From positions 27,006-91,005 of the forward strand of contig NZ_JQFJ01000004.1 of NCBI RefSeq assembly GCF_000763945.1: 64,000 bases of DNA, read 5' to 3'. The notes below the pieces were generated by a model, which did no database searches, had not been told where the DNA came from, and saw nothing but the letters and a program-made list of their open reading frames with translations. The DNA comes from Sphingopyxis sp. MWB1. Lineage in GTDB: Bacteria > Pseudomonadota > Alphaproteobacteria > Sphingomonadales > Sphingomonadaceae. The translations under genes were made by a program, and so were the position numbers. Shown here in pieces: positions 40,522 to 59,317 of this stretch (positions are counted from its first letter, which is position 1; each line of letters opens with the position of its first letter).

Positions 40522-41253
40522 CTATACCAAGGTCTTTCTCCGGGATTCGCGGCGCCGGCGCAGCCAGCGGAAGTCGGCGCGGCTGAAGCTTTTGAACAGA
40601 AGATAAAAGCCGGTCCCCGACAGCCATAGCGTCCCGAAGGCGACGAAGATGATCAGCGGGTGGTTGAAGCTGGAGCGGTTCAAATAATCCATATTGTGCA
40701 GCATCCAGAAAAAATCCCATGTCCGCCAGGCATCGCCGCGCATGACGAGAAATTCGCCGGTTTCGGCCGAAATATAGGCGCTGCTGTTGGCTGGGTCGGC
40801 GAAATCGACCCGCCACATCGGCCCCTGATGATCGCGCGCCTCCAGGTTGGGTTTTGCGAGCAATCGCGTTTCGCGCACCGGCGCCTCGTTCATCATCGCG
40901 GCGACGCTTTCCGCCAAGGCGGCATCGACCTGCACCTGCCTTCCATCGAGAGCGTCGAACAATTGCACCTGCCCCGCGGTCCGCAATTCATACACGGGCC
41001 GCATGGCAAGATCCCGCAGCACAAGGCCCGTGGCTTCCCCGGCGCGGGGCAAGGCCGAAGGGGCGATATAGCTTCCCTCTGCCAAGGCATGGCTGTGCCC
41101 CATGCCCGATGCATGGGCGCGCACCTGATCCTTGTCGAGCAGCGCCATCACCGATCCGCTGAGCGACCAGAGCAGAAATTGGAGGCCGAGGATCAGCCCC
41201 ACCCATTTATGGATGCGGCGAAAGAAAAGCGGCGTCAGACGAATTTTCTTCAT
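40522..41253 (-). CDS. PepSY-associated membrane protein, second in receptor operon
   Basis: 243 residues. An N-terminal RIHKWVGLILGLQFLLWSLSG helix, a periplasmic PepSY-like stretch (VELRT...VQLFDALDGRQV and YISAETGEFLVMRGDAWRTWDFFWMLHNMDY), and a C-terminal helix (LIIFVAFGTLWLSGTGFYLLF) with a basic cytosolic tail. The histidines in RIHKW and LHNMDY are typical of PepSY-TM proteins, some of which act as reductases for imported metal-siderophores. Start ATG overlaps the preceding gene by four bases. The ATG at 41253 was preferred to the longer frame. Confidence 0.8.
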   Translation of the reverse strand: MKKIRLTPLFFRRIHKWVGLILGLQFLLWSLSGSVMALLDKDQVRAHASGMGHSHALAEGSYIAPSALPRAGEATGLVLRDLAMRPVYELRTAGQVQLFDALDGRQVQVDAALAESVAAMMNEAPVRETRLLAKPNLEARDHQGPMWRVDFADPANSSAYISAETGEFLVMRGDAWRTWDFFWMLHNMDYLNRSSFNHPLIIFVAFGTLWLSGTGFYLLFKSFSRADFRWLRRRRESRRKTLV

Positions 41254-41954
41254 GTCTTTTTCCTCCGGCGACGGGGGAAGGACCAGATGAGCAGCCAGGC
41301 GCCGGTGGCAGCCATGGCAAAGGCGCTCCACGTCGCCACTCTCAGCAGCGGATTGTTCACGTCGCTGCGTTCATCATAGTCCATGATGTGCAGCATCCAG
41401 GCGAAGTCGAAGATGCGCCAGAGCGCATGGCGGCGCGAAATCAGCTCGCCAGTATCGGGCGACAGATAAAGGATCGGACGGTTCCAGCCTTCAAACTCCA
41501 CCGCCCAATAGGGCGGCTTTCGCGATTGCATTTCGATAGGGGCCGTTGTCAGCAATTTGACCGACACAATCGCGCCATCGCTGGCATAGATACGGCGGGC
41601 TTGTTCGCGTATCTGTATCTCGCTGGGGCGGGCGAGGGGTTCGCCCGACCGCGCATCGAACAGCCGTGGACCCTCCGGTGTTTGCGCGCGCCACACCGGC
41701 CGTTCCAGAAAGCGCTGCAAGCGAATTTCCGAAACGCCGGGCACAGCAGCAACGAGCCGTGAAGGCGGCGCGAGACCGGCAAGGTCAAAGGGCGCAGCCG
41801 GTGCCTCGCGCACCAGATGATCGCCATGGATGATGTCGATATGCACCGCGACCATGTAAAAACCCGTGACGGTCCAGATCAGCGCCTGAACGCCCACGAA
41901 GAGCGCCAGCCATTTATGGGTCCGCCGGACGAGCAGCGGCCATCTGATTTTCAT
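41250..41954 (-). CDS. PepSY-associated membrane protein, first in receptor operon
   Basis: 234 residues, paralogous in layout to the next gene: RRTHKWLALFVGVQALIWTVTGFYM at the N-terminus, a periplasmic domain ending YLSPDTGELISRRHALWRIFDFAWMLHIMDYDER, and a C-terminal helix with an RRRRKK tail. The conserved histidines of both membrane ends are kept, fitting a heme- or metal-binding transmembrane pair. It follows the TonB receptor by 14 bases and so probably shares its promoter. Confidence 0.8.
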   Translation of the reverse strand: MKIRWPLLVRRTHKWLALFVGVQALIWTVTGFYMVAVHIDIIHGDHLVREAPAAPFDLAGLAPPSRLVAAVPGVSEIRLQRFLERPVWRAQTPEGPRLFDARSGEPLARPSEIQIREQARRIYASDGAIVSVKLLTTAPIEMQSRKPPYWAVEFEGWNRPILYLSPDTGELISRRHALWRIFDFAWMLHIMDYDERSDVNNPLLRVATWSAFAMAATGAWLLIWSFPRRRRKKT

Positions 41955-41968
41955 GTCCCTGCCCCTTG

Positions 41969-44674
41969 TCAGAAAGCGGTACGGAAACCGGCGTAGAAGC
42001 GGCGTCCGAGCAGGTCATAAGTCATGGTGTCGGTGTTGGCATCGGTATAGCTCTGGATGAAGGGCGCTTTACGGTTGAACATATTGTCCACCCCAATCTG
42101 GAAGCGTGTCCGGTCATCCACCGCATAGGCGAGCTGGAGATTGTGGTAGAAGATGTTCGGTGTGCGATAGCCGATGTCACCGGGGTCGGCGTTGAAATCG
42201 GTCGCCTTGCCGATCCATTGGGTGGACCAGGTGGCGCTGATGCCATCCTTTTCAGCGGTCAGCACGCCATAGCCGCGCCATTTGGGATAGCCGCCATTGC
42301 CCCCGCCAATAAAGCCGTCGAAATGGATCGGTGCCCCGCCCGGAAAGGGGTAGACGATATATTCGTTCAGCCATGTCGCATTGACGTCGAGCGAAAACGA
42401 CACATCGCCCAGCATCCGGTTATAGACCAGGCCAAGATCGAGGCCGCTCATTTGCTCGCGTCCCGTATTGATCGGCTGCGCCGACAAGTAGGTGACTTCG
42501 CCGGTCAAGGAACTGCGCGTGAAATCGTCGCAGAAAGGGTGCGAGAGATTTTGACTGGCGTAGCAGACGGCAAGCTTGGTCGAGCCGGGAATGGCGCGGA
42601 TCGCGTCCTTGATCCGGATATCGAACCAGTCGGCGGTCAGCGAAAGGCCGGGAACAATGCCGCGCGGTGAAATCACCGTTCCAACCGTCCAGCTTTTCGA
42701 GCTTTCGGGCTGAAGATTTTCATTGCCGCCAATGGTGGTGAGGATCGTCGAGCCTAGCTGCGTATAACCCGCCGGGACCCCCGACGCCTGGCAATTGGCG
42801 ATCAGCGTGGCATTGCCGCTGCTTGAATAGTTGGAGCAGGGATCGGTGGTCGTCAGATTGCCTTCGGACACACCGCCGAACAGCTCCGGCACATTGGGGA
42901 TGCGAAAGCCGGTGCCATAGGTGCCGCGCAGCCGAATGGCGTCGCTGATCATCCAGTCGACGCCCAGCTTGTAATTCCAGTCGCCGCCAAACAGATCATA
43001 ATCCGAATAACGCACCGCCCCGTCGAGGGTCAGCGCCCGGAAAAAGGGCGTGTCGGCGAGCAGCGGCACCGACAGTTCAAGATAGGCTTCGCGCGCGGTG
43101 CTGGAGCCCGAAATCGGGTCCTGCTGGTTGGTGTTGGCAACGCCCGCCACCGTCAGCGGGTCCGGGTCGCGCCATCCTTTTTCCTTGCGATAGACGACAC
43201 CCGTGGCGAAACCGACCGATCCCGCAGGAAGGGTGAAGAGATTGCCGGCAAGGTCGGCGCTGACCGTCGCCAGTTCATTGCCGCCATGGTCGCGCGAGGT
43301 GAAGAAGATATAGTCGCGCACCGCAGGGCTGATGTCCCCCGCCCCCAGATAATCGCCGCAGGGAATGGCCGCGCCCGGCGCTGTACTGCATTTCGCGGGG
43401 TCGAGCGTATTGGCCACATGCTCCAGATTGGCGATATTGGTCGAGCCATCGATGCCGGTGTTGCGGCCAAAGCTGCCCGACATTTCCCAGCGCCAGTCAT
43501 TGGACAGGCTCCCGCGCAAGCCGAATGTGCCCTGCCAGGTGTTGGTTTCCTGGAAAAAGTGCCGCGGCCCCGGTTCGGCGAGACGGCGCTGGACCAGCAC
43601 AATATCCTCGCCGGTGGGGTTGGTCGGATTGCTGGCCGAGATCGCAATATTGCGGAGCACTCCCGGCGTCGCAATCTGGTTCGATTTGCGGAAGGTGTAG
43701 AGAAACTCGCCAAAAGCCTGAATATCGTCACTGACGGCATAATCGGCGAAAAAGGCCGTGCTGATCCGCTCGACCGGGCTGACCGCATTGAGAAACGGCG
43801 CCGAATTGAAATTATGTTTTGCAGGGCTGTAGGGTTCATAGAAATCCCCGTCGCCGCCGGGGGTCTGGTTGAAGTTGATCTGCTGCCCATTGGGCAAAAC
43901 CGCCCGTCCGCCGACGGTAGCGGCGCTGTTGGAACAGCTCAATGTCCCCGGCGCCACTTCACGCAGGGCGCAGGGCGCGCGGCTCGCCATATTGACCGCG
44001 CTGGTCTTTTGATAGGTCACCGCCGCCATGAAGCCGCCGCGATCGCCGCGCACACCCAACAGCAGGTCGGCGCTGAAATCGGCGCCATCGCCCTTTTCGG
44101 TGATGCCCTGGCGCAAGCTAAGCCCCAGCCCTTCATAATCGGTGCGGGTGATGAGGTTGACCACCCCCGCGACGGCATCGGCACCATAAATGGCCGAGGC
44201 GCCGTCCTTCAGCACATCGGTGCGCGCGAGGGCCGCCACCGGAATCATGTTGAGGTCGGGCGAGGAATTGGCGCCCGTACCGCCCGCGACGAGCCGACGA
44301 CCGTTGAGCAGCACCAGCGTCCGCTTGATGCCGAGCCCGCGCAGATTGACCTGCGCCGTGCCATAGCCATTGCTCGCCCAATAGGCGGAGGATTGATTGC
44401 CCGCAAAACCGGCATTGGCGGGCAGGCGCTGCAACAGCGTCTCGACATTGACGATCCCGGTATTTTCGACCTGTTCCGCCGAAACGACGGTGGCAGGCCC
44501 CACTCCGGCCAGATCCTGACGCGGGATGCGCGACCCGGTGACGACAATCGCATCGCCTCCGCTTTCCACCCCAGCGGACGGCCCCGCCATATCCTGAGCG
44601 AAAGACGGAACGGTAAGAATCGAAAGACAGGCGAGCGCAACGCCCCCTGCGAGAAAATTGGCTTTAACGGTCAT
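41969..44674 (-). CDS. TonB-dependent outer-membrane receptor
   Basis: 901 residues. Signal peptide to about residue 26 (LACLSILTVPSFAQ), a TonB-box-like segment (DAIVVTGSR at about 41-49), plug domain (VNVETLLQRLPAN, VNLRGLGIKRTLVLLNGRR, VLKDGASAIYGADAVAGVVNLIT), then a 22-strand barrel with the C-terminal RRFYAGFRTAF ending in phenylalanine. The plug style is that of the sphingomonad/Caulobacter receptors that carry nutrients as well as siderophores. A HutC-type palindrome 43 bases upstream suggests the ligand relates to histidine metabolism, for example histidine, urocanate or a histidine-metal complex. Confidence 0.92.
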   Translation of the reverse strand: MTVKANFLAGGVALACLSILTVPSFAQDMAGPSAGVESGGDAIVVTGSRIPRQDLAGVGPATVVSAEQVENTGIVNVETLLQRLPANAGFAGNQSSAYWASNGYGTAQVNLRGLGIKRTLVLLNGRRLVAGGTGANSSPDLNMIPVAALARTDVLKDGASAIYGADAVAGVVNLITRTDYEGLGLSLRQGITEKGDGADFSADLLLGVRGDRGGFMAAVTYQKTSAVNMASRAPCALREVAPGTLSCSNSAATVGGRAVLPNGQQINFNQTPGGDGDFYEPYSPAKHNFNSAPFLNAVSPVERISTAFFADYAVSDDIQAFGEFLYTFRKSNQIATPGVLRNIAISASNPTNPTGEDIVLVQRRLAEPGPRHFFQETNTWQGTFGLRGSLSNDWRWEMSGSFGRNTGIDGSTNIANLEHVANTLDPAKCSTAPGAAIPCGDYLGAGDISPAVRDYIFFTSRDHGGNELATVSADLAGNLFTLPAGSVGFATGVVYRKEKGWRDPDPLTVAGVANTNQQDPISGSSTAREAYLELSVPLLADTPFFRALTLDGAVRYSDYDLFGGDWNYKLGVDWMISDAIRLRGTYGTGFRIPNVPELFGGVSEGNLTTTDPCSNYSSSGNATLIANCQASGVPAGYTQLGSTILTTIGGNENLQPESSKSWTVGTVISPRGIVPGLSLTADWFDIRIKDAIRAIPGSTKLAVCYASQNLSHPFCDDFTRSSLTGEVTYLSAQPINTGREQMSGLDLGLVYNRMLGDVSFSLDVNATWLNEYIVYPFPGGAPIHFDGFIGGGNGGYPKWRGYGVLTAEKDGISATWSTQWIGKATDFNADPGDIGYRTPNIFYHNLQLAYAVDDRTRFQIGVDNMFNRKAPFIQSYTDANTDTMTYDLLGRRFYAGFRTAF

Positions 44675-44728: not shown

Positions 44729-44851
44729 ATGAAGGGCTTTTTTTTAATTTATATCAAATACTTATACGTCATATTGCCAGATGAACCGGCATATAGGATA
44801 CGCGTCGGCTACCCCCACCCCTCAATTTTGGAGAAATTTAAGGCGAATGGC

Positions 44852-45016: not shown

Positions 45017-45742
45017 CTAGCTCTGGCCTGTCGTGCTTCGCGCTGAGCCGAAACGGGCCATCATGTCATAGGCGCTGCCCACAAATTGCTGGCGTACCAA
45101 AGTGATGCCCTCCTCGCCGCGCCAGGTCCGCCGCTCAACCAGCAGGCAGGCGGCAGCGACCGCGATCTTGAGGCGCATCGCCGTCAGATGATCGGCGGGA
45201 ACGGCGGCAATGCGCGTTTCCGCTTCGGTCCATGGCACATGTTTGAGAAGCCATGCGCCGGGCGAGGCGGTATCGAAGGCCTGATCGGCGATATCGGGCA
45301 CGGCGTTCAGACTGACCAACCGTTCTTCAAAGGCAAGCGGCGCGTCATCGGCATGATGCACCCCCTCTATTGCAAGCAAGGCGCCGCTTCCGGCCAATTG
45401 CACCTCATCGGGCCGGTCGGGATGCGGTATACGCACCGTCCGCCGGATGAGATTGAAGCGATAGGCCTGCCCGCGCTGCGCGACTTCCTGCTCCAGATCG
45501 GGAACGTCGAGCACCATCGAATGAACCTTGGGCCGCGCGACAAAGGAACCGGCGCGTTTGCGCCGGTCGATCAGACCCGCCGCGGCGAGCGCCGACAGCG
45601 CCTTGTTCACCGTCATGCGCGCGCAGCCATATTGCTGCATCAGCTGTTGTTCGGTGGGCAGGCGCGCGCCGGGCAAAAGTGTGCCTGACAGGATCGACGC
45701 CTCTATCTCGCTGCGGATGCGTTCGTGCAGCGGCAGGGTCAC
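45017..45742 (-). CDS. hutC: Histidine utilization repressor
   Basis: 241 residues; GntR winged helix at about 5-70 (RLPTEQQLMQQYGCARMTVNKALSALAAAGLIDRRKRAGSFVARP) and a UTRA ligand domain. HutC binds urocanate and releases the hut genes. It is cotranscribed with hutF, overlapping it by four bases (ATGA), so it is likely autoregulated through the operator at 47142. Distinct from the GntR regulator at 31160, which belongs to the GlcNAc genes. Confidence 0.93.
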   Translation of the reverse strand: MTLPLHERIRSEIEASILSGTLLPGARLPTEQQLMQQYGCARMTVNKALSALAAAGLIDRRKRAGSFVARPKVHSMVLDVPDLEQEVAQRGQAYRFNLIRRTVRIPHPDRPDEVQLAGSGALLAIEGVHHADDAPLAFEERLVSLNAVPDIADQAFDTASPGAWLLKHVPWTEAETRIAAVPADHLTAMRLKIAVAAACLLVERRTWRGEEGITLVRQQFVGSAYDMMARFGSARSTTGQS

Positions 45743-47115: not shown

Positions 47116-47141
47116 CGTAGTTCCCATCCACTGTTTCAATT

Positions 47142-47153
47142 ATGTCTATACAT
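47142..47153. promoter_or_regulatory. Candidate HutC operator in the hutF/hutI gap
   Basis: ATGTCTATACAT is a near-perfect palindrome (only the two central-flanking bases differ) resembling TTGTATATACAA at 44717. It lies 26 bases before the hutF start and 44 before hutI, so one site could repress both directions. Confidence 0.6.
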
Positions 47154-47197
47154 TAAAGCAGCGGGATGCAATGATCGTGGCGAAGGGAGATTCGGCG

Positions 47198-48421
47198 ATG
47201 CGATGCGACAGGCTGTGGCGCAATGCGCGGCTGGCGACGATGGCAGGACCATCGGGCGCGGGCGATGGAAGCGCCGCCATGGGGTTCATCGAAGACGGGC
47301 TGCTGGCCGCGCGCGACGGCCGCATTCTCTATGCTGGACCTGCCGCCGATGCCCCCGCCTTTGACGCCGCCGAGGAAGTCGATTGCGCGGGGCGCTGGAT
47401 CACCCCCGGCCTGATCGACTGTCACACCCATATCCTGCATGGCGGCAACCGCGCGCATGAGTTCGAGCTGCGGCTGGAAGGCGCCTCTTATGAAGAAATT
47501 GCCCGTGCGGGCGGCGGCATTGTTTCCACGATGCGCGCAACGCGAGAGGCCAGTGAGGATGAGCTGGTCGCGAGTGCCCTGCCCCGCGTCGATGCGCTGA
47601 TGGCTGAAGGGGTGACGACGCTGGAGGTGAAATCGGGCTATGGTCTCGACACCGCCAATGAGCTGAAGATGCTGCGCGCCGCGCGGCGGCTGGGAGCCGA
47701 GCGCCCGCTGCATATCGCCACGACCTTTTTGGGCGCTCATGCCCTGCCCCCCGAATATGCGGGTGACGCCGATGCCTATATGGCGCTGGTGATCGACGAA
47801 ATGCTGCCCGCCGTACAGCGCGAGGGGCTGGCCGATGCGGTCGATGCCTTTTGCGAAGGCATCGGGTTCAGTGCCGGACAAACCGAGAGACTGTTTGCGG
47901 CGGCGGTGCACGCAGGGCTGCCGGTCAAGCTGCACGCCGAACAATTGTCGAACCAGCATGGCGCGGCGATGGCGGCGCGGCATGGCGCCTTGTCGGCGGA
48001 TCACCTCGAATATCTCGATGAAGCGGGGATCGCCGCCATGGCGCAGGCAGAGACGGTCGCGACGCTGCTGCCCGGAGCCTTTTACTTCATGCGCGAAACG
48101 CGCCTGCCGCCAATTGCGGCGTTGCGCGAAGCAGGCGTCCCGATCGCGCTCGCGACCGACTGCAACCCCGGTACGTCACCGCTGACCTCGCTGCTGCTGA
48201 CCCTCAACATGGGCGCGACCCTGTTCCACCTGACCGTCGCCGAATGCCTCGCGGGCGTCACGCGCAACGCCGCGCGTGCGCTGGGTCTGGCGGACGAGAT
48301 CGGGACACTAGAGGCCGGAAAGCGCTGCGACCTTGCCATTTGGGACATCGAGCGTCCCGCCGAACTTGTCTATCGCATCGGGGCGAACCCGCTCCATGCC
48401 CGTATCTGGAGTGGCCAATGA
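47198..48421 (+). CDS. hutI: Imidazolonepropionase
   Basis: 407-residue amidohydrolase: [41 protein letters not shown] at the N-terminus, [18 protein letters not shown], metal histidine in [12 protein letters not shown], and the catalytic aspartate in [12 protein letters not shown]. It opens imidazolone-5-propionate to N-formimidoyl-glutamate. The ATG at 47198 follows GAAGGGAGA with good spacing; ATG 47171 is less likely. It leads the plus-strand hut operon. Confidence 0.96.
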
Positions 48422-49950
48422 CCGAAATCCTGCTCTCCCCCGGCGCCGTGACGCTGGCCGACTGGCGCGCCATCTATCGCGGCGCGGCGCTTCGGCTGGA
48501 CCCGGCATCGGCGCCGCGCATCGCCGAAAGCGCGGCGGCGGTGGAGCGGATATTGGCCAAGGGGGCGCCCGTTTACGGGATCAATACCGGATTTGGGAAG
48601 CTCGCGAGCGTGCGGATCGACGACGCCGATCTGGCGACCCTGCAACGCAATATCGTGCTGAGCCATGCGGCGGGAACCGGTACGCCCTCCCCCATTCCTA
48701 TCGTGCGGCTGATGATGGCGCTGAAGCTTGCGAGTCTGGCCCAGGGCGCCTCAGGCGTCCGGCTCGAGACCATTGCCCTGCTGGAGGCGATGCTTGCCAA
48801 GGGGCTGACCCCGGTGATCCCGTCACAGGGATCGGTCGGCGCGAGCGGCGATCTGGCGCCCCTATCGCATATGGCGGCGGCGATGATCGGCGTCGGGGAC
48901 ATGTACGTCGGCGAGCGGCGCCTTTCCGCCGCAGAAGCGCTGAAAGAAGCCGGGCTGGAGCCGCTGGAACTGGCGGCGAAGGAAGGGTTGGCGCTGCTCA
49001 ACGGAACGCAATTTTCCGCCGCCAATGCGCTTGCCGGACTGTTCGAAGCCGAATTGCTGTTCCAAAGCGCGCTGGTGACGGGCGCACTTTCGACCGAGGC
49101 CGCCAAGGGCTCGGACACGCCCTTTGATGCGCGCATCCACGAACTGCGCCGCCATCGCGGACAGATCGAAGTGGCTGGCGCGCTGCGCGAACTGATGGCG
49201 GGATCAGCCATTCGCGCCTCGCACCGCGAGGATGATCCGCGCGTGCAGGACCCTTACTGCCTGCGTTGCCAGCCGCAGGTGATGGGCGCCGCGCTCGACC
49301 TGTTGCGGCAGGCAGCAACGACGCTGGAGATTGAGGCGAACGGCGTGTCCGACAATCCGCTGATCTTTGCGGGCGCCGATGAAGCGCTCTCGGGCGGCAA
49401 TTTTCACGCCGAACCCGTCGCCTTTGCCGCCGACATGATCGCGATGGCGATTTGCGAGATTGGGTCGATTTCCGAACGGCGCATCGCGATGCTGGTCGAT
49501 CCCGCGCTGTCGGGCCTGCCCGCCTTTCTGACTCCGCAGCCGGGGCTGAATTCGGGCTTTATGATCCCGCAGGTAACGGCGGCGGCGCTGGTCAGCGAGA
49601 ATAAGCAGCGTGCCTATCCCGCCAGTGTGGATTCGATCCCGACCTCGGCCAATCAGGAAGATCATGTGTCGATGGCCGCGCATGGTGCGCGGCGCCTGCT
49701 GGAGATGGCGGAAAATGCCCAGGCGGTGATCGGCATCGAGTGGCTGGCGGCGGCGCAGGGGTGCGATTTTCATAGCGGGCTGGCCTCGTCCGAAGCGCTC
49801 GAACGCGCGCGGGCGCTGCTGCGTTCGCACGTGCCGATGCTCGACCATGACCGCCATTTCCATCCCGATATGGAAGCGGCCAATGCAATGGTCCGCAACG
49901 GCGCGCTGGTCGAGGCGGCCAAGGTCGCACTGCCGGGCGTAGCCCCATGA
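48418..49950 (+). CDS. hutH: Histidine ammonia-lyase
   Basis: 510 residues. The MIO cofactor is formed by Ala-Ser-Gly at residues 142-144 in [15 protein letters not shown]; the tyrosine/glycine loop [12 protein letters not shown] lies near residue 50. Other family blocks are [16 protein letters not shown] and the DNPLIF segment. It deaminates histidine to urocanate, which is also the HutC inducer. Start overlaps the hutI stop (ATGA). Confidence 0.97.
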
Positions 49951-50753
49951 GCGACTGGCTGCATATTCATCGCGGCGAGGCGCCGCTGGTGGTCGCCTTT
50001 CCGCATGGCGGCACCGGTTTGGCGGGGCGTGAGGATCGCTTCGTGTCGCCATGGCGCGCGCGGCTCGACACTGACTGGTGGATCGCCGAGCTTTACGCCT
50101 TTGTTCAGGACATGGACGCAACGACGGTGGCAACCGACATCTCGCGCGCCGTCATCGACATGAACCGCGACCCGTCGGGCGCATCGCTCTATCCAGGGCA
50201 GGCGACGACCGAGCTGTGCCCGACGACGAGTTTCGAGGGCGATCCGCTCTATTCCGGCGCGGGTCCCGATGCCTATGAGATTGCGGCGCGCAGACAAAAC
50301 TTCTTCGATCCCTATCATGCCGCGCTGGCGGCGGAGATTGATCGGCTGCGCGGCGTCCATGGGCGCGTCGTCCTTTATGATGCGCATTCGATCCGCAGCC
50401 GGGTGCCGCGCCTGTTCGACGGCGAACTGCCGCAATATAATATTGGCACCAACGGCGGTGCGACCTGCGCCCCCGAACTCGAAACCGCCATTGCAGCTAT
50501 CTGCGCGGCAAGCGGCGATAGCCATGTCGTCAACGGCCGCTTCAAAGGCGGCTGGACGACGCGCCACTATGGCCGCCCGGCGGACGGCATCCATGCGATC
50601 CAGATGGAACTGGCGATGCGCGGTTATATGTCCGAGCCTGCTGCGCCGGATGAGGCCAACTGGCCCGCCCCCCTTCATTCCGACCCTGCGATCCTGCCCG
50701 TGCTGCGGCAGGTGATCGCCGCTGCTCTCGACTTTGCGAAAGGACCCGCATGA
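49947..50753 (+). CDS. hutG: N-formylglutamate deformylase
   Basis: 268 residues of the FGase family: [13 protein letters not shown] at the N-terminus, [55 protein letters not shown], and [18 protein letters not shown]. It releases formate and glutamate from N-formylglutamate, the last step of the HutF route. Start overlaps the hutH stop by four bases. Confidence 0.95.
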
Positions 50754-52420
50754 CCACCCGTCTCGACAACAGCCGCATCATCAAGGCGCCGACCGGCACC
50801 GAACTGAACGCCAAAAGCTGGCTGACCGAAGCACCGCTGCGCATGTTGATGAACAATCTGCACCCCGACGTCGCCGAAGCGCCGCATGAACTGGTCGTTT
50901 ATGGCGGCATCGGCCGCGCGGCGCGCGACTGGCAAAGCTACGACCGGATCGTCGAGGCGCTGAAGCGGCTGGAAGATGATCAGACTTTGCTGGTCCAGTC
51001 GGGCAAGCCCGTGGGGGTTTTCCGCACCCACGCCGACGCGCCGCGCGTGCTGATCGCGAACAGCAATCTGGTGCCGCATTGGGCGAATTGGGATCATTTC
51101 AACGAACTCGATAAGCGCGGGCTGGCGATGTATGGGCAGATGACCGCGGGGTCGTGGATTTACATCGGCACGCAGGGCATTGTTCAGGGCACCTATGAAA
51201 CCTTTGTCGAGATGGGGCGCCAGCATTATGGCGGCGACCTGTCGGGCAAATGGCTGCTGACCGCCGGCCTCGGCGGCATGGGCGGCGCACAACCGCTCGC
51301 GGCAGTGATGGCGGGGGCGTCGTGCCTGGCGATCGAATGCCAGCCGAGCCGGATCGAAATGCGGCTACGCACCGGCTATCTCGACAAGGCCGCGCAGACG
51401 ATCGAAGAAGCGATGGCGATCATCGAGCAAAGCTGTGCGGAGAAAAAGCCGGTGTCGGTCGGCCTGCTTGGCAATGCCGCCGAAATATTGCCCCAGCTTT
51501 ATGCGCGCGGCATCCGCCCCGACATGCTGACCGACCAGACGAGCGCGCATGATCCGGTCAACGGCTATCTGCCCGCCGGGTGGAGCGTGGCCGAGTGGGT
51601 CGAGAAGCGGACGAGCGACCCGCAAGCAGTGGCGAAGGCGGCCAAGGCGTCAATGGCGGTGCATGTCCGCGCGATGCTGGATTTTCAGGCGGCAGGGGTG
51701 CCGACGACCGATTATGGCAATAATATCCGGCAGGTCGCGAAAGATGAAGGGGTCGACAATGCGTTCGATTTCCCCGGCTTCGTTCCCGCCTATATCCGCC
51801 CGCTGTTCTGCCGGGGCGTGGGGCCGTTCCGCTGGGCGGCGCTGTCGGGCGATCCGGAGGATATCTACAAGACCGACGCCAAGGTGAAGGAATTGTTGCC
51901 CGACAATGCGCATCTTCACCGCTGGCTCGACATGGCGCGCGAGAAGATCCATTTTCAGGGGCTGCCCGCGCGCATTTGCTGGGTCGGCCTGGGTGACCGG
52001 CACCGGCTGGGCATGGCGTTCAACGAAATGGTCGCGTCGGGCGAACTCAAGGCCCCGATCGTCATCGGACGCGATCACCTCGACAGCGGATCGGTCGCTA
52101 GCCCCAACCGCGAGACCGAGGCGATGCGCGACGGCAGCGATGCGGTGTCGGACTGGCCGCTGCTCAACGCCCTGCTCAACACCGCGAGCGGCGCGACCTG
52201 GGTGTCGCTGCACCATGGCGGCGGCGTCGGCATGGGATATTCGCAGCATAGCGGCATGGTGATCGTCGCCAACGGCACCCCGGAAGCGGCGAAGCGACTG
52301 GAGCGGGTGCTGTGGAACGACCCCGCAACGGGGGTCATGCGCCATGCCGATGCGGGATATGAGATTGCGATCGACTGCGCGCGGGAGAAGGGGCTGGACC
52401 TGCCCGGCATTTTGGGATGA
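50750..52420 (+). CDS. hutU: Urocanate hydratase
   Basis: 556 residues, the normal urocanase length. Family blocks: [69 protein letters not shown] (NAD-binding), and [18 protein letters not shown] with the active-site cysteine. It hydrates urocanate to imidazolonepropionate with tightly bound NAD+. Start overlaps the hutG stop (ATGA). Confidence 0.97.
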
Positions 52421-52986
52421 GCGACGCGCCGCTGATCCTGCGCGCGGGGGAGCGAAGCCTGCAGCCGTGGCGCAATGGCGGCGGGGTGACGCAGGAGATT
52501 TGGGTCGATCCGCCGGGTGCGGGGGATGGCGATTTCCTGTGGCGGGCGAGCCTGGCGACGATTGATACCCCCGGCAACTTTTCCGATTGGCCGGGGATCG
52601 AGCGGCTACTGGTTCCACTGACCGGAGTGCTCGAACTGAACATCGAAGGCGAGACGATATGTCTGGCGCCGGGCGATGAAGGCCGCGCTTTTCCGGGCGA
52701 AGCGCAGGTGAGCGGGCGTCCGCTGGACGGGCGCTGTTCCGTACTGAACATCATGACCCGGCGGGGCCGGATGTTAGCGAAAGTGCCGCGCAGCGTAAGC
52801 TTGGCGGGGCAGGTTCCGGGCCCCCGGCCAAAGCAGCGGCTGGTGGTGGCGCGGGAGCGGGAGGCGGTGGAGACTGGGGAGACGCGGCTGGTGCTGGAGG
52901 CGGGGGATGCGCTATTGCTGAATGGCGATGGCGTGACAGATTTTGAAGATAAATATTTGATTATACTTGATTTATTTTCCGCTTAA
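52417..52986 (+). CDS. hutD: HutD family protein
   Basis: 189 residues, cupin-like. [15 protein letters not shown] at the N-terminus and [31 protein letters not shown] are HutD hallmarks. In Pseudomonas fluorescens HutD is thought to set an upper limit on hut operon activity, perhaps by binding formylglutamate or urocanate. It is the last gene, overlapping hutU by four bases. The G/A-rich codon run towards the end of the gene looks unlike its neighbours but stays in frame. Confidence 0.9.
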
Positions 52987-53272: not shown

Positions 53273-54523
53273 TCAGAACCAGATGCGAACGCCGACGATG
53301 AAGGCGGTTGTTTCCACGGCTTTGCCGCTGGCGCGGGCATAGTCGGCGGTGGCGCCAAATTTGCGTTCCCATTGGACGCCCACATAGGGGGCGAATTCGC
53401 GGATGATTTCATAGCGCAGGCGCAGGCCCAGTTCGGCTTTTGAAAGCCCCGAGCCGATGCCGCTTTCGGGCACGCCCTGCAGCGCGAAATCGGCCTCTAT
53501 TGCGGGCTGGAGGACGAGGCGCTGGGTGATGCGCTGGTCATATTCGCCCTCGATCCGGGCAAAAGCGTCGCCCTTGTCCGAGAGGAAGAGCGCGCCCTCC
53601 ACCTCGAACCAATAGGGGGCGAGGCCTTCGAAGCCGATAGTGGCATAGCTTCGGTCGGGGCCGGGGCCGAAATCCCGGCGGACACCCGCCTGCGCGTTGA
53701 AATAGGGACCGATGGCGCGGCTGTAGAGCAATTGCGCCTCGCCGCCTTCAAACCCTTCACCGATTTCGCTTTCGCCCTCGCCCTTGATCGTCAGCCGGTT
53801 GATGTCGCCGCCGAACCAAGCTTCCGCATCCCAGGCGAGGCTGTCATGCCCCTTTCGCGCCAGATATTCGAAATTGGCGCTGATGAAGCCGAAGGTCTGG
53901 TCGCCATTTTCGACCATCATTTCATGGCGCGAATGCTCCATCGCGGCCTTGGGGAAGATGCGGTCGGCATACCAGTCGCCAGGCGGCGGCGGCGCGGGGG
54001 CGTCGCCTGCGGGGAGGTCGGTGCCACTTTTGCCGTCCGCCGCGCCGGGGGTGGCAACATCGAGCGTGCAATGGCCCATGGCGGCATGGTCTGGCGTGCA
54101 GGCGGGCGTAGCCGGGGTTGCCGAAACCGCGGGCATGGCGTGGCTCGGGTGCGGATCGACCGGAGGCGGAGCGGTTTGGCCGCTGTGGGCGCCGTGGACG
54201 CTGTGGGCGCCATGGTCGCCATGATCCGAGTGAGCATCGTGGTTGGCAGGCGCGGTGGGCGCTTGATGGCTCCGATGATCCTGATGACCCGGCTGGCGTT
54301 GGTGCGCGTCATGCCCGCCCTGCCCGGCTTCGGCTTCCATGTTGCAATGGCCCATGGCAGCGTGGTCGGGGGTGCAAGTCGGCGCTTTATGGGCGGAATG
54401 ATCGCCCTGCGCCGCATGTCCCTGATGAGATGTTCCATGCTCGGAGCCATGCGATTGGGCAAGCGCGGGCGCGGCGAGCGCCAGCGCCGAGAGCCCTGCG
54501 AGCAACATCGAGGCGCGCATCAT
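53273..54523 (-). CDS. copB: Copper resistance outer-membrane protein CopB/PcoB
   Basis: 416 residues. Signal peptide to about residue 22 (LSALALAAPALAQ), a histidine/methionine-rich periplasmic region (to about 165) with the unit CTPDHAAMGHC at 50-60 and again at 142-152, and then the CopB barrel domain (GDWYADRIFPKAAMEHSRHEMMVENGDQTFGFI) ending in IWF. CopB sits in the outer membrane and sequesters or exports copper with CopA. It overlaps the copA stop by a few bases, so they are coupled. Confidence 0.93.
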   Translation of the reverse strand: MMRASMLLAGLSALALAAPALAQSHGSEHGTSHQGHAAQGDHSAHKAPTCTPDHAAMGHCNMEAEAGQGGHDAHQRQPGHQDHRSHQAPTAPANHDAHSDHGDHGAHSVHGAHSGQTAPPPVDPHPSHAMPAVSATPATPACTPDHAAMGHCTLDVATPGAADGKSGTDLPAGDAPAPPPPGDWYADRIFPKAAMEHSRHEMMVENGDQTFGFISANFEYLARKGHDSLAWDAEAWFGGDINRLTIKGEGESEIGEGFEGGEAQLLYSRAIGPYFNAQAGVRRDFGPGPDRSYATIGFEGLAPYWFEVEGALFLSDKGDAFARIEGEYDQRITQRLVLQPAIEADFALQGVPESGIGSGLSKAELGLRLRYEIIREFAPYVGVQWERKFGATADYARASGKAVETTAFIVGVRIWF

Positions 54524-56316
54524 ACTGCCTCTCCCTTGGGGCGGACGCTGACGACGCGCATCATCCCCGCGTGCATATGATAGAGAAGATGGCAGTGGAA
54601 CGCCCAGTCGCCGAGCGCGTCGGCGGTGAAATCGAAGGTGGCGATGCCGCCCGGCTGGACGATCACCGTATGCTTGCGCGGCGCGTGATCGCCCTTCCCC
54701 GTCACCAGTTCAAAGAAATGGCCGTGCAGGTGGATGGGGTGACTCATCATCGAATCGTTGATCAGGTTCACGCGCACCCGCTCGCCCTCGATAAAGGGGA
54801 TGGGTTCGTGATGGTCGGACATCTTCACCCCGTCGAACGACCACATGAAGCGTTCCATATTGCCGGTCAGGTGGATGTCGAGCGAGCGTTCCGGCGCACG
54901 CACATCGGGGTTGCGGTCGAGCGCGACGAGGTGGTGATAGGTCAGCACCTCATGCCCCACATCCTCCAGCCCCTGCCCCGGTTCGGCCATGCGGTCGACG
55001 GGCATGGGGGAGATGGACTGGACGCTGGGGTCGCGCTTTACCTGCGGCGCGACGTCGAAATCGCGCATGCTGTGGTCCATGCCGCCCGCACCATGGCCCA
55101 TCGCGGCGTGATCGGCGGCGCCCGAGGCGTCACCAGCTGGCGTGCAATGGCCCATGGCGGCATGTTCGGGGGTGCAGGCGGCGTCGCCGCCGCCCGACAT
55201 GTCCATCCCCATATCCTTCATCGTTGCGAGCGGACGCGCGCGCAGCGCGGGCACCGGCGCGACCAGCCCGACGCGCGGGGTGAGCGTCGCGCGCGCCATG
55301 CCCGACCGGTCATTGGCCTCGGCAACGAAGGTGAAGGCGCGGTCTTCATCCGGCGTGACGATGACATCATAGGTTTCGGCAACGCCGATCTGAAATTCGT
55401 CGATCGCGACCGGCCGGACATGCAGCCCGTCGGCCTGAACCACCGTCATGCGCAGCCCCGGAATGCGGACGTTGAATATCGTCATCGCCGAGGCGTTGAT
55501 GATGCGCAGCCGCACCCGCTCCCCGGGCCGGAACAGCGCGGTCCAATTGTCGCGCGGGCCATAGCCGTTGACGAGGAAAGTATAGGTCGAACCATTGACG
55601 TCGGCGACATCGGTGGGGTCCATCCGCATCGCGCCCCATTCAATACGTTCCTTGAGCGACTGGTCCTTGCCCGCGAGCAGGCCCGCGAACGTCTGGCGCT
55701 GCATGTTGAAATGGCCCGGATTGACCTTCATCTTGCGAAAGATTTCCTCGGGCGCGAGCGTGCTGTGGTCGGACAGGACGATCACATGTTCGCGGTCAAA
55801 AGGCGCGGGTTCGGCGTCCGCCGGGTCGATGACGATGGGGCCATAATGGCCAAGCTGTTCCTGAAGCCCCGAATGGCTGTGATACCAATAGGTCCCCGAT
55901 TGCAGGATCGGAAATTCATAGACGAAACGCGCGCGCGGCTTGATGCCAGGAAAGCTGACGCCGGGGACGCCATCCATGTGAAAAGGCAGGATCAGCCCAT
56001 GCCAGTGGATCGAGCTGTCCTCGTTAAGATCGTTGATGACGGTGAGCTTTGCCTGCTGCCCTTCCTTCAGGCGGATCAGCGGGCCGGGAATGGTGCCATT
56101 GATGCCGATGGCGCGGGTGGTGCGGCCATCGACGCGCAGCGTGCGGCGTGCGATACGAAGCTGAATATCCTCCCCCGAAACGCTGGGGAGCGGGGCGGCG
56201 ATGCCGGGCGAGACGGGCTGCGCCCAGGCGGGAAAATAGGAGGAAAGCGCGGCCACTGCGCCGCCGCCCAAGGCCCCGCCCATGAAAAGGCGCCGGTCAA
56301 TCTGCATGGAAATCAT
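54520..56316 (-). CDS. copA: Copper resistance multicopper oxidase CopA/PcoA
   Basis: 598 residues, exported by the Tat route (twin arginine in DRRLFMGGA at residues 7-15). Four copper-binding motifs are intact: HWHG (104-107), WYHSHSG (144-150), HPIHLHGHFF (526-535) and HCHLLYHMHAGMM (574-586). A Met/His-rich insert at 365-420 includes CTPEHAAMGHC (381-391), the same unit as in CopB. It oxidises Cu(I) in the periplasm. ATG 56316 has AGGAG only three bases upstream; ATG 56307 is an alternative. Confidence 0.95.
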   Translation of the reverse strand: MISMQIDRRLFMGGALGGGAVAALSSYFPAWAQPVSPGIAAPLPSVSGEDIQLRIARRTLRVDGRTTRAIGINGTIPGPLIRLKEGQQAKLTVINDLNEDSSIHWHGLILPFHMDGVPGVSFPGIKPRARFVYEFPILQSGTYWYHSHSGLQEQLGHYGPIVIDPADAEPAPFDREHVIVLSDHSTLAPEEIFRKMKVNPGHFNMQRQTFAGLLAGKDQSLKERIEWGAMRMDPTDVADVNGSTYTFLVNGYGPRDNWTALFRPGERVRLRIINASAMTIFNVRIPGLRMTVVQADGLHVRPVAIDEFQIGVAETYDVIVTPDEDRAFTFVAEANDRSGMARATLTPRVGLVAPVPALRARPLATMKDMGMDMSGGGDAACTPEHAAMGHCTPAGDASGAADHAAMGHGAGGMDHSMRDFDVAPQVKRDPSVQSISPMPVDRMAEPGQGLEDVGHEVLTYHHLVALDRNPDVRAPERSLDIHLTGNMERFMWSFDGVKMSDHHEPIPFIEGERVRVNLINDSMMSHPIHLHGHFFELVTGKGDHAPRKHTVIVQPGGIATFDFTADALGDWAFHCHLLYHMHAGMMRVVSVRPKGEAV

Positions 56317-56341: not shown

Positions 56342-56367
56342 TTACGCAGCCGGAGGGCCAGCCCCTT
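56342..56367 (-). promoter_or_regulatory. Candidate ECF-sigma promoter of copA
   Basis: On the minus strand AAGGGG (56367-56362), 13 bases, then TGCGTAA (56348-56342), ending 25 bases before the first copA ATG. The same spacing and hexamers occur before copC and the cnrY-like gene. Confidence 0.65.
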
Positions 56368-56380
56368 AAAAACAGGTCTG

Positions 56381-56962
56381 TTATTCCCCGCCATCCTGCT
56401 TTTCATCCAGCGCATCGCGCAATTGCTGGCGCGCGCGATAGAGGCGGGTTTCGACCGTCTTTTGGCTGACCCCCAGCGTTGCGGCGGCCTCCGCCTGGCT
56501 CATTTCCTCCACCCCGCGCAGCAAGAGGACCTCGCGCAGGCGCGGCGGCAGCGCCGCCATGGCCGCGCGGACGCGCGCCAGTTCGGCGCGGTCGCCCGCC
56601 TGCCGGTCTGGCGGCGGGGCTTCGGCGGCGACATGGACCGCGGTGTCGAGCGGCAGGGCGCGGGCGAAAAAGGCGCGCACCTTGCGCCGCCGCGCCCAGT
56701 CGCGGCATTTGTTGAGCGCGATGCGCGCGATCCACAGGCGAAAGGGACGCGCGCCGTCATAGCGGTGAATGGCGGCAAAGGCGGAGACGAAGGCTTCCTG
56801 TGTCAGATCGAACGCCTCGTCGGCGTCGCCGACATGGCTGTAGACCAGCCGATAGGTAAAGCCCTTGTACCGGCGCAGGATTTCGCGGCAGGCTGCTTCG
56901 CTGCCGGCCTGTGCCATGGCCGCCAGTTGCTGGTCGCTTTCGTGCTCCGTCTGCGCCTTCAC
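56381..56962 (-). CDS. ECF sigma factor, CnrH-like
   Basis: 193 residues. Region 2 (about 25-95): EILRRYKGFTYRLVYSHVGDADEAFDLTQEAFVSAFAAI and the following PFRLWIARIALNKCRDWARR. Region 4 (about 130-185): LPPRLREVLLLRGVEEMSQAEAAATLGVSQKTVETRLYRARQQL, the helix-turn-helix for the -35 box. It is close in size to Cupriavidus CnrH (about 191 residues). It overlaps the sensor gene by four bases and lies upstream of copA, in the order Y-X-H-copA-copB. It probably directs transcription from the AAGGGG-N13-TGCGTA sites. Confidence 0.92.
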   Translation of the reverse strand: MKAQTEHESDQQLAAMAQAGSEAACREILRRYKGFTYRLVYSHVGDADEAFDLTQEAFVSAFAAIHRYDGARPFRLWIARIALNKCRDWARRRKVRAFFARALPLDTAVHVAAEAPPPDRQAGDRAELARVRAAMAALPPRLREVLLLRGVEEMSQAEAAATLGVSQKTVETRLYRARQQLRDALDEKQDGGE

Positions 56963-57399
56963 CGCGCATCGGCGGTCAGCGCCTTGACCACGCTTTTGTC
57001 GAACATCGCCGCCTGGTCGGCGTCGAGCACGTCGCGCATCGCGAAGAGATGCTGCAAGGTTTCCTTTTGCAATTCGCCCATCACCCGGTGGCTGTGGTCG
57101 ATCGCCTCGGTCACTTGCGGGCCATAGCCATGCTCGGCCTCGATCGCGCGGGCGAGCGCGACATTGGCGGCGCGCATTTCGCGCTGCAGCGCGTCGCGGC
57201 GGGCCGCGAAATCGCTCTCGATCCGGTCGAGCCGGGCATGTTGATCGGGCGAAAGATCGAGTTCGTCATGGAGCAGCGCGTGCAGCTCCGTCTCGCTCGC
57301 GCGCGGCTGATCGAGGATCAGCCGCCCCGCGAAAATCCCCGCAAAGGCCGCGATAAAGGCGACCGCCGCGACGAGCAGCAGGCGGCGTGCGCTGTTCAT
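56959..57399 (-). CDS. Periplasmic metal sensor, CnrX-like
   Basis: 146 residues: one N-terminal membrane anchor (LLLVAAVAFIAAFAGIFAG) and a helical periplasmic domain. Residues H40, H44, E61, H117 and M121, in spacing HxxxH...E...HxxxM, reproduce the Ni/Co site known in CnrX (H42, H46, E63, H119, M123). An extra H90 is present. In the Cnr system metal binding releases the anti-sigma factor. Here the neighbours are copper genes, so the sensed metal is open. Length matches CnrX (about 148). Overlaps both flanking genes by four bases. Confidence 0.85.
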   Translation of the reverse strand: MNSARRLLLVAAVAFIAAFAGIFAGRLILDQPRASETELHALLHDELDLSPDQHARLDRIESDFAARRDALQREMRAANVALARAIEAEHGYGPQVTEAIDHSHRVMGELQKETLQHLFAMRDVLDADQAAMFDKSVVKALTADAR

Positions 57400-57683
57400 T
57401 CGCCGCCGCCCAGCAAGGCAGCGGGGGCGAGCGGGCTGGCGGGCGCCAGCGGGGTCAGCGGGCTAGCCGCGACCGCCGGGCCGGGCAGCACGCTGCCCGC
57501 GACCATGCCGCCGCCGAGCGAGACAAAGGCCGCGATGGCGAGCATCCGCCGCATCGCCGCTGCTTCGCGCCGCCGCGTCTCCAGCGCGCCCAGCACGCGG
57601 TCGTCGAGCGCGTCGAGTGCGTCGGGCAATGGCGCCTTGCCCAGCATGGAAAGCTGGCCGGTCAGTGGATCTGTTTCTTTCAT
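57396..57683 (-). CDS. Anti-sigma protein, CnrY-like
   Basis: 95 residues. Cytosolic part (MKETDPLTGQLSMLGKAPLP and a helical DALDALDDRVLGALETRRRE) followed by one membrane helix (about 47-66, MLAIAAFVSLGGGMVAGSVL) and a proline/alanine-rich periplasmic tail. This is the layout and exact length of CnrY, which binds CnrH. Low overall conservation is normal for CnrY. Start at 57683 has GGAAGGGG five bases before TGAGG-ATG. The long open frame upstream of it belongs to the antisense of copC and was not used. Confidence 0.75.
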   Translation of the reverse strand: MKETDPLTGQLSMLGKAPLPDALDALDDRVLGALETRRREAAAMRRMLAIAAFVSLGGGMVAGSVLPGPAVAASPLTPLAPASPLAPAALLGGGE

Positions 57684-57696
57684 CCTCACCCCTTCC

Positions 57697-57722
57697 ATAC
57701 GCATGCGCGCGCCGCGCCCCTT
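57697..57722 (-). promoter_or_regulatory. Candidate ECF-sigma promoter of the cnrY-like gene
   Basis: On the minus strand AAGGGG (57722-57717), 13 bases, then TGCGTAT (57703-57697), ending 13 bases before the ATG at 57683. This would leave only a very short leader, so a slightly different start or promoter use is possible. Confidence 0.5.
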
Positions 57723-57749
57723 GCCCGCCCTGGAAATTTTCCTGGAGCC

Positions 57750-57775
57750 AAGGGGGCTGCGCCCGCCCTGCGTAA
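57750..57775 (+). promoter_or_regulatory. Candidate ECF-sigma promoter of copC
   Basis: AAGGGG (57750-57755), 13 bases, TGCGTAA (57769-57775), then 31 bases to the copC ATG. Same hexamers and spacing as the sites before copA and the cnrY-like gene. A small palindrome-like run TGGAAATTTTCC (57731-57742) lies just upstream. Confidence 0.65.
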
Positions 57776-57806: not shown

Positions 57807-58184
57807 ATGAGCAAATATCTGTTTACTGCGATGGCGATCGCTTCTTTGCTGTTCGCGCCCGGCGCGCAGGCCCATGTCTCGCTGGCGGCATCGACCCCGG
57901 CGGCGGGGGCAAGCGTGGGCAAGGTGACGCAGGTGCAACTGCGCTTCAGCGATGTTATTGCCCCCGCCAGCGCGCGCGCCGAGGTGGTGATGACCGCAAT
58001 GCCGGGTATGACCGATCATCCGCCGATGAAAATGCCGCTGACGAGCGCCATCGGCAAGGATGGCCGGTCGATGACGCTGACGATGAAGCGCGCGCTGGTC
58101 CCCGGCACCTATCAGGTCAAATGGACGGCGGCGGGAAGCGACGGGCACAAGAGGACCGGCGCCTTTGACTTCAAGGTGAAATAG
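57807..58184 (+). CDS. copC: Copper-binding protein CopC
   Basis: 125 residues with a signal peptide cleaved before H23 (APGAQA then HVSLAASTPAAGA), giving the mature N-terminal histidine that forms the Cu(II) brace. The CopC core follows: LRFSDVIAPASARAEV, a methionine-rich loop (MTAMPGMTDHPPMKMPL) and PGTYQVKWTAAGSDGH. It is a periplasmic copper carrier. Start ATG has GGAGGAAATA upstream. The expected partner copD is not adjacent. Confidence 0.93.
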   Translation: MSKYLFTAMAIASLLFAPGAQAHVSLAASTPAAGASVGKVTQVQLRFSDVIAPASARAEVVMTAMPGMTDHPPMKMPLTSAIGKDGRSMTLTMKRALVPGTYQVKWTAAGSDGHKRTGAFDFKVK

Positions 58185-58212: not shown

Positions 58213-58836
58213 TCAAGGCCGCCCCGCCGCCAGTTCGCCGCGCGCCTGGCGGATGATTTCCGCCGCGCCCCAGATGGCCAGCCCCGCCATGATCGCAGCG
58301 ACGCCAAGGTCGGGCCAGCGCTGTCCCGTGCCAAAGACGCCGAGCGCGGCGCCCATGACGGCGAGATTGCCGATGGCGTCGTTGCGCGAGCAGATCCAGA
58401 CCGAGCGCATATTGGCGTCACCCGCGCGATAGCGATAGAGAAGCAGTGCGACGGCGACATTGGCGACCAGCGCCATGGCACCGATCAGCCCCATGGTTTC
58501 CGCCTGCGGCGCGCTGCCCGAGACCGCAGCCCACAGCGCCGAGCCGAGCACCCAGAGGCCGAAGACGAGCATCGTCAGCGCCTTCACCAGCGCAGCGCGG
58601 GCGCGCCAGGCAAGCGCCATTCCCGCGACGCCAAGGCTGATCGCATAATTGGCGCTATCCCCCAGAAAATCGAGCGCGTCAGCCTGAAGCGCGCGCGAAT
58701 CCGCCGCGACCCCCGCCGCCATTTCAATCGCGAACATCGCGCCATTGACGATCAGCGCGATCCATAAAATTCGCCGCCACCGCGGGTCGTTAAGCGCGGC
58801 CGGGCCGCTTTTGCTGGCGCAGCATTGGTCTGCCAT
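58213..58836 (-). CDS. Cation diffusion facilitator-type metal transporter
   Basis: 207 residues, the membrane half of a CDF protein with about six helices. Helix II has ADALDFLGDSANYAISL and helix V SRNDAIGNLAVMG, the D..D and D..N metal sites of the family. The N-terminal CC in MADQCCASKSG may bind metal. The long cytosolic C-terminal domain of CzcD/FieF is absent. It likely exports Zn, Co or Cd. It is divergent from the MerR gene and convergent with copC. ATG 58836 is preferred over a longer frame. Confidence 0.85.
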   Translation of the reverse strand: MADQCCASKSGPAALNDPRWRRILWIALIVNGAMFAIEMAAGVAADSRALQADALDFLGDSANYAISLGVAGMALAWRARAALVKALTMLVFGLWVLGSALWAAVSGSAPQAETMGLIGAMALVANVAVALLLYRYRAGDANMRSVWICSRNDAIGNLAVMGAALGVFGTGQRWPDLGVAAIMAGLAIWGAAEIIRQARGELAAGRP

Positions 58837-58881
58837 GGCCGAAGCCTCCTTGGTTATTCGAGTCGGCATCCTATATGCAGC

Positions 58882-58909: not shown

Positions 58910-59317
58910 ATGAAAATCGGTCAATTATCGCGCGCCACAGGCACCCATATCGAGACCATCCGCTATTATGAACGGATCGGCCTGCTGCCCGAACCGGGGC
59001 GCACCGCCGCCAATTATCGCAGCTATAGCGACGCGCATCGCGCGCGGCTGCGCTTTGTGCGCCATTCGCGTGAACTCGGTTTTACGATCGAGGAGATACG
59101 CTCGCTGCTCGACCTGTCCGACCATCCGGCGCGCGATTGCGGCGAGGCCGACCGCATTGCGAGCATACATCTGGAACAGGTGGAGGCGAAAATCGCGCAG
59201 CTCGAAGCGCTGCGCGACGAGCTGAGACGCATCGTCGGCCGCTGCCGCGGTGGACAGGCGGGGGACTGCCGGGTGATCGAGGCGCTGGGCGATCATGGGC
59301 AATGCGCGGGGCATTGA
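58910..59317 (+). CDS. MerR-family heavy-metal regulator (CadR/PbrR-like)
   Basis: 135 residues: MKIGQLSRATGTHIETIRYYERIGLLPEPGR is the MerR helix-turn-helix, followed by a dimerisation helix (LEQVEAKIAQLEALRDELRRIV). Cysteines at C77, C112 and C120 match the metal-binding set of CadR/PbrR regulators, with another at C132 near a His-rich end. It activates the divergent transporter through the operator at 58882. ATG 58910 was chosen because the upstream frame overlaps the operator. Confidence 0.92.
   Translation: MKIGQLSRATGTHIETIRYYERIGLLPEPGRTAANYRSYSDAHRARLRFVRHSRELGFTIEEIRSLLDLSDHPARDCGEADRIASIHLEQVEAKIAQLEALRDELRRIVGRCRGGQAGDCRVIEALGDHGQCAGH

Follow-up and report, generated by a model that had tools for sequence, protein, structure and literature searches.

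The window analysed here, a 64,000-nucleotide stretch of contig NZ_JQFJ01000004.1 from Sphingopyxis sp. MWB1, contains copper resistance genes arranged around an ECF sigma factor unit, together with a more distant operon headed by the gene of a TonB-dependent receptor (TBDR). Reading the minus strand from position 57683, a gene for a 95-residue protein is followed by those for a Metal_resist sensor, an ECF sigma factor, CopA and CopB, and copC lies divergent to this series. The coordinates of all features are collected in Table 1.

Table 1 Genes and predicted regulatory sites of the window
Feature	Coordinates	Strand	Basis or remark
Second PepSY_TM-like protein, TBDR operon	40522..41331	-	Pfam PepSY_TM, 40 bits
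PepSY_TM-like inner-membrane protein, TBDR operon	41250..41954	-	Pfam PepSY_TM, 27.4 bits, just under the 28.8 cutoff
TBDR, 901 aa, predicted fourth target	41969..44674	-	Pfam Plug and TonB barrel
TGTATATACA palindrome in TBDR leader	44718..44727		Matches HutC operator TGTA-N2-TACA
Fourth predicted ECF promoter, before the TBDR gene	44798..44824	-	TGAGGGG-N13-CGCGTAT; overlooked in the preliminary description
hutC, histidine-utilization repressor, beside the TBDR gene	45017..45742	-	TIGR02018, 273 bits against a cutoff of 220
copB, outer-membrane copper resistance protein	53273..54523	-	Pfam CopB
copA, copper-resistance multicopper oxidase	54520..56316	-	TIGR01480, 798 bits against a cutoff of 479
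Predicted ECF promoter of copA-copB	56342..56367	-	Kept in 47/49 dereplicated loci
ECF sigma factor, 193 aa, CnrH-like	56381..56962	-	Pfam Sigma70_r2/r4_2
CnrX-like periplasmic metal sensor, 146 aa, N-terminal membrane anchor	56959..57399	-	Pfam Metal_resist
Probable anti-sigma factor, 95 aa, one membrane segment	57396..57683	-	Role by position
Predicted ECF promoter of the anti-sigma/sensor/sigma operon (autoregulatory)	57697..57722	-	Kept in 50/51 dereplicated loci
Predicted ECF promoter of copC	57750..57775	+	AAGGGG-N13-TGCGTAA; kept in 42/44 dereplicated loci
copC, periplasmic copper-binding protein	57807..58184	+	Pfam CopC

The best PDB sequence match of the sigma factor is CnrH (4cxf, E 6.6e-30), with 39% identity to CnrH over 183 columns; its region 4 match ends at residue 181, 12 residues before the C-terminus, and the protein contains two cysteines. 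NccX and CnrX are the best PDB sequences for the sensor, whose structure model (mean pLDDT 83) is closest to CnrX 2y3d with a TM-score of 0.87 by target length. Residues H40, H44, E61, H117 and M121 of the sensor align with H42, H46, E63, H119 and M123 of CnrX, which we take to be the metal ligands of that protein, a role with which PDB titles on E63 and M123 mutants partly agree. These five positions were kept in all 57 sensor sequences compared (the methionine in 56). In addition, D101, H104 and M107 of the sensor were found in 56 of the 57, with CnrX as the sole exception, and H90 in 54; a preference for copper may lie in these four residues. For the 95-residue protein, no Pfam or NCBIfam family was found, and a clear match was obtained to its Caulobacterales counterpart. 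The preliminary description had called its gene cnrY-like, which holds for position, size and the single membrane segment but not for sequence, as similarity to CnrY was undetectable (hhalign probability 0.2%, E 0.27). Working in the manner of CnrYXH still stands for the unit as a whole, with this subunit akin to CnrY only in size, place and its one hydrophobic segment.

The same description had proposed that three matched AAGGGG-N13-TGCGTA(A/T) sites, at 56367-56342 (-), 57722-57697 (-) and 57750-57775 (+), mark an ECF sigma regulon over copper genes, and all three were recovered with these coordinates and strands. The pattern has exactly three matches in the window, and a genome-wide search, which had been suggested as a check, returned the same three and no others from the 3,118,428-base assembly. 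The view that such a triple match would hardly arise by chance was likewise upheld, with a mean of 0.00 exact-pattern matches per shuffled window and none of 100 shuffles reaching three. When one mismatch was allowed, three more places appeared in the assembly, all on another contig, compared to four for a reversed control pattern at up to one mismatch. Across 298 genomes of the family, the exact pattern showed no excess, with one match each in 16 other genomes compared to 25 for the reversed control.

For the comparison with relatives, loci were taken from a scan of named genomes with a sensor gene, the best 80 of 173 being used; their titles name mostly sphingomonad genera or families, and a few just Proteobacteria or Alphaproteobacteria. 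With the window proteins as queries, 78 of these 80 loci yielded the anti-sigma gene, 69 a divergent copC and 76 copA, some of the missing genes reflecting contig ends and others real gaps. A relaxed (A/G)AGGG-N14-(C/T)GCGTA site preceded 77 of 79 anti-sigma genes, 67 of 70 copC genes and 74 of 77 copA genes in these best 80 of 173 loci plus the window, and dereplication to 53 loci (window included) gave the proportions listed in Table 1. The site was not found before the anti-sigma gene in L113 and L114, before copC in L093, L109 and L116 (a looser match is present in L116) or before copA in L109, L126 and L132. In the dereplicated loci, the core reads (C/T)(A/G)AGGG-N14-(C/T)GCGTA(T/A), broader than the pattern first proposed, and AAGGGG as the true -35 element was rejected, as relatives mostly have G in its first position and vary in its sixth. 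A single spacing is used, with 161 sites at spacing 14 and 0 to 3 at each other spacing from 6 to 22 in 433 kb of dereplicated loci, and the 14 spacer letters are only weakly conserved, which is the pattern expected of a promoter under selection. The first frame of at least 60 codons mostly begins 26-39 nt downstream of the sites. Opposite-strand counts (42 anti-sigma and 41 copC regions) were rejected as a sign of bidirectionality, since both are explained by the site of the divergent partner, which falls within the 150 bases scanned.

The distribution of the site follows that of the sensor gene. Among 60 genomes of the genus, YRAGGG-N14-YGCGTAW occurred at 390 places compared to 63 for the reversed pattern, with at least one in 53 genomes. 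The 49 genomes with a sensor gene held 381 of these sites (control 50) and the 11 without it held 9 (control 13), a difference with a Mann-Whitney P of 1.3e-6 that is to be read as one among related lineages rather than independent samples. Six of those 9 sites are in one genome, G342, in which the sensor gene was not found, and four of the six fall in one stretch with copC, one site preceding copC and another a DUF2231 gene. In this copper cluster (L209, G342:C24:92000-110000), where ECF sites surround copC and a sensor was not found, transcription may depend on a sigma factor that has diverged or is distant.

Besides the three core promoters, 20 sites were present in the dereplicated loci. 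Seven precede frames with the start of a YHS-type copper ATPase, one of which (L056) was scanned and contains YHS and E1-E2 ATPase domains; one precedes a TonB-receptor-like start, three are letter-identical to receptor sites, and two precede anti-sigma-like frames that the protein search had missed. Another lies before a frame with what is presumably a DUF411-like start, although a Pfam scan of this cut frame gave no match, and the remaining six precede a DUF305 gene, a weak-DUF305 frame, a similar-looking frame, a methyltransferase gene and, in two cases, no clear gene. In genome G330, further sites precede genes for a P-type ATPase, a DUF411 protein, a cytochrome c, a second TonB receptor and a PAS histidine kinase. 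Two other places in the genome of the window were set aside as targets: C2:1624778 matches the core but departs from the consensus at the flanking letter and does not look like a target, and C2:2170283 matches the full consensus but is antisense within a coding frame and looks like a chance match.

The closest characterised counterpart is CnrYXH of Cupriavidus metallidurans, encoded on pMOL28 and composed of the ECF sigma factor CnrH, the sensor CnrX and the anti-sigma factor CnrY. Gene order and protein sizes are alike, sigma factor and sensor are homologous with the sensor ligand positions kept, and in both systems the regulatory operon, like the first effector gene, is preceded by AGGG and CGTA blocks. 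On pMOL28, AAGGGG and CGTA blocks precede cnrY, and GAGGGG and CGTA blocks precede cnrC. PMC9045368 places the starts 24 and 25 nt upstream of cnrY and cnrC and reports two promoters upstream of cnrY, one for RpoD and one dependent on CnrH, and an entry in PMC11647585 gives a cnrY start at 53286, labelled RpoD. By our own arithmetic, both published starts (cnrYp and cnrCp) lie 9 nt after CGTA. The systems differ in their effectors, which are CopC, CopA, CopB and a TonB importer here rather than the CnrCBA Ni/Co efflux pump, in the distance from AGGG to CGTA, which is one base shorter in sphingomonads, in the additional divergent promoter, and in the proteins themselves, with no CnrY similarity detectable in the anti-sigma factor and the extra conserved D101, H104 and M107 in the sensor. 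Within the 12.6 kb cnr stretch that was fetched, the sole strict sphingomonad-type match is inside cnrB, as chance would give.

With the 9-nt offset after CGTA borrowed from cnrYp and cnrCp, transcription of copC is predicted to start at about 57783, 24 nt before its ATG at 57807, and that of copA-copB at about 56334. The anti-sigma mRNA is predicted to start at about 57689, which leaves a leader of just 6 nt ahead of the ATG at 57683, shorter than in most relatives. With a leader of about 6 nt, or an in-frame GTG start, in the interval 57683-57698, translation of the anti-sigma protein may be leaderless or begin further in.

A scan of the window with the broader consensus, which is itself partly derived from these sites, found four matches compared to 0.02 expected, the fourth lying about 12 kb from the others and 124 nt before the ATG of the TBDR gene, with a predicted leader of 116 nt. 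Orthologues of the receptor (rows with E = 0) numbered 50 in 41 of the 60 genus genomes, and of these 50 rows, 30 loci were fetched. All 30, the window's own included, carry the site at a nearly constant distance; the distances of 84-85 nt come from the use of an upstream in-frame start, and the near-constancy holds once they are set to the common start. The receptor was present in 41 of the 49 genomes with the sensor gene and in none of the 11 without it. In 9 of the 30 loci, the 1.5 kb upstream of the receptor gene includes copB, and in genome G310 there is no frame of at least 120 codons between the two. The TBDR gene and the two PepSY_TM-like genes are probably co-transcribed, judging by their overlap and spacing. 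Small reading frames were also sought in the leader, and none was common to all 24 distinct leaders.

The leader contains a further conserved element. The palindrome TGTATATACA is invariant in the 24 distinct TBDR leaders from the 30 loci, and TTGTATATACAA occurs at one place in the whole genome, the TBDR leader. Pseudomonas HutC binds TGTA-N2-TACA according to the operator described in PMC12977541, and proteins of the HutC type may act at the leader box as well. A convergent HutC-family gene was found within 3 kb at 47 of 50 TBDR orthologues, and the two such genes that were scanned both exceed the TIGR02018 cutoff. The window genome has no such convergent copy at E 1e-30, and hutC adjoins the receptor gene instead. 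The likeness to a HutC regulon consists of the operator in the leader and the adjoining hutC; the gene concerned differs in that it encodes an outer-membrane receptor with a predicted promoter of the copper circuit and is not a hut enzyme gene. A histidine utilization cluster occupies 45017-52986 between copB and the receptor gene, with hutC, hutF, hutU and a Ves/HutD-like gene by NCBIfam and, presumably, hutI, hutH and hutG, which were named by their reading frames. In this cluster, TGTCTATACA at 47143-47152 is one mismatch from the HutC-type box and lies near the divergent starts of hutF and hutI. No hut cluster was found between copB and the receptor gene in G330 or G310.

We regard these sites, with a probability of about 0.9, as promoters of a CnrYXH-type ECF circuit in which the sigma factor serves its own operon, copC, copA-copB and the TBDR/PepSY operon, the last of which also carries a HutC-type box. 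The comparisons presented above establish site placement, spacing, conservation, co-occurrence with the sensor gene and homology of sigma factor and sensor. RNA polymerase carrying the sigma factor encoded at 56962-56381 would read the sites as -35/-10 promoters. In the absence of metal, the 95-residue membrane protein would hold the sigma factor, aided by the CnrX-like periplasmic sensor, and binding of periplasmic metal, most likely copper, by the sensor would free it to transcribe the anti-sigma-sensor-sigma operon, the divergent copC and copA-copB, and, from the fourth site at 44824-44798, the receptor/PepSY operon. About 65 nt downstream of its predicted start, the fourth transcript would run through the HutC-type operator, and the import branch would then be set jointly by metal and a histidine- or urocanate-type signal.

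The proposal of ECF promoters over copper genes, including the sigma operon itself, is supported by the conserved placement and spacing and by the homologous CnrH sites that precede mapped starts. A conserved two-block site of fixed spacing could also be the operator of a repressor or activator instead of a sigma promoter, but here we find this barely credible, as neither block repeats the other and both are oriented toward a gene that mostly begins at the short downstream distance given above, the mapped starts at the homologous CnrH promoters lie where a -35/-10 pair would place them, and the sole regulator found in the shared copC-to-copB block, searched with the window's own genes, is the sigma unit. 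The fourth site could be a chance match with the receptor outside the regulon, and its position some 12 kb away behind the hut genes, its long predicted leader and the existence of a chance-like consensus match elsewhere in the genome (C2:2170283) would agree with this. Such a coincidence is very improbable given the site at all 30 orthologue loci, the loci in which copB is close by and the co-occurrence of receptor and sensor. With this fourth promoter and the further targets in relatives, the circuit, first described as self-contained, appears not to be closed on three genes, and its fourth branch would join copper-sigma control to a histidine-type repressor.

Copper as the signal of the circuit, as named at the outset, is suggested by gene context. 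The five positions that bind Ni/Co in CnrX are conserved in the sensor, and with these unchanged, copper is not proved as the metal. The same circuit might have nickel, cobalt or zinc as its physiological signal, with the copper genes a by-product of gene context, and the structures closest to the sensor model, which are of Zn-bound, mutant and Ni-bound CnrX, point in this direction along with the ligand positions. We nevertheless consider another metal unlikely, as the three sites first described stand before copC, copA-copB and the regulatory operon, genes for a heavy-metal P-type ATPase with a YHS domain and for DUF411 proteins follow the sites in relatives, D101, H104, M107 and H90 are conserved with CnrX lacking the first three, and a copper-bound CnrX structure exists, judging by the title of 3epv. 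In addition, the counterparts on Caulobacter and Asticcacaulis plasmids lie among copper-annotated genes. On the Asticcacaulis plasmid pASTEX02, three sites have the sphingomonad spacing, two of them before genes for a multicopper oxidase and a copper-binding protein; no strict site was found at two Caulobacter plasmid loci.

Under the preferred reading of a copper-responsive CnrYXH-type circuit, a signalling unit of the Ni/Co type precedes copper detoxification genes in many sphingomonads, and the promoter consensus obtained for this CnrH-type sigma family of alphaproteobacteria is sharp and has the specificity needed for proposing regulon members from sequence. The literature searched on ECF sigma factors and copper resistance, with most subscription papers outside its scope, yielded no description of such a circuit. 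CorE of Myxococcus xanthus, as portrayed in PMC10141476, is likewise an ECF sigma factor with a link to genes for multicopper oxidases and copper ATPases, but its control lies in a Cys-rich extension at its own C-terminus, unlike that of the sigma factor here, which is co-encoded with a sensor and a membrane partner. A CorE-type sigma factor was rejected on its size of 193 aa, its two cysteines and these partners in the operon.

The predicted import branch, under double control, is the unexpected part. It is conceivable, though doubtful, that an outer-membrane importer working with inner-membrane PepSY reductases is under the joint control of a copper-sensing ECF sigma factor and a repressor of the HutC family, and that it brings in histidine or a chelate resembling copper-histidine. 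If true, copper defence would be coupled to uptake of a copper ligand, opposite in logic to copper importers induced by starvation. Two possible models for an import branch tied to copper are CrtA and CciT. In the accounts of PMC12914433 and PMC13038864, CrtA/CrpH of Bordetella pertussis comprises a TonB-dependent copper importer and a PepSY_TM protein encoded in one operon, a layout resembling that of the receptor and PepSY_TM-type genes here; that operon is upregulated by copper starvation, in contrast to the predicted control by a metal-stress sigma factor here. An invariant histidine characterises the CrtA receptor subfamily. CciT of Caulobacter crescentus is presented in PMC12004943 as a TonB-dependent receptor that increases under copper stress and is required for resistance to copper, against which it protects through iron uptake; it differs in importing iron under Fur, its commonest neighbour being the oxygenase CciO.

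Finally, two observations concern the copper genes and their neighbours. Beside copC, a gene for a CDF-family efflux protein (58213-58869, -) is divergent from one for a MerR-family regulator (58910-59317, +), whose best NCBIfam scores, to CadR-PbrR and CueR, are both below cutoff; no ECF consensus site precedes either gene in the window scan. CopB and CopA are rich in histidine, methionine and cysteine, with CTPDHAAMGHC occurring twice in CopB and CTPEHAAMGHC once in CopA, and these segments are likely metal-binding.
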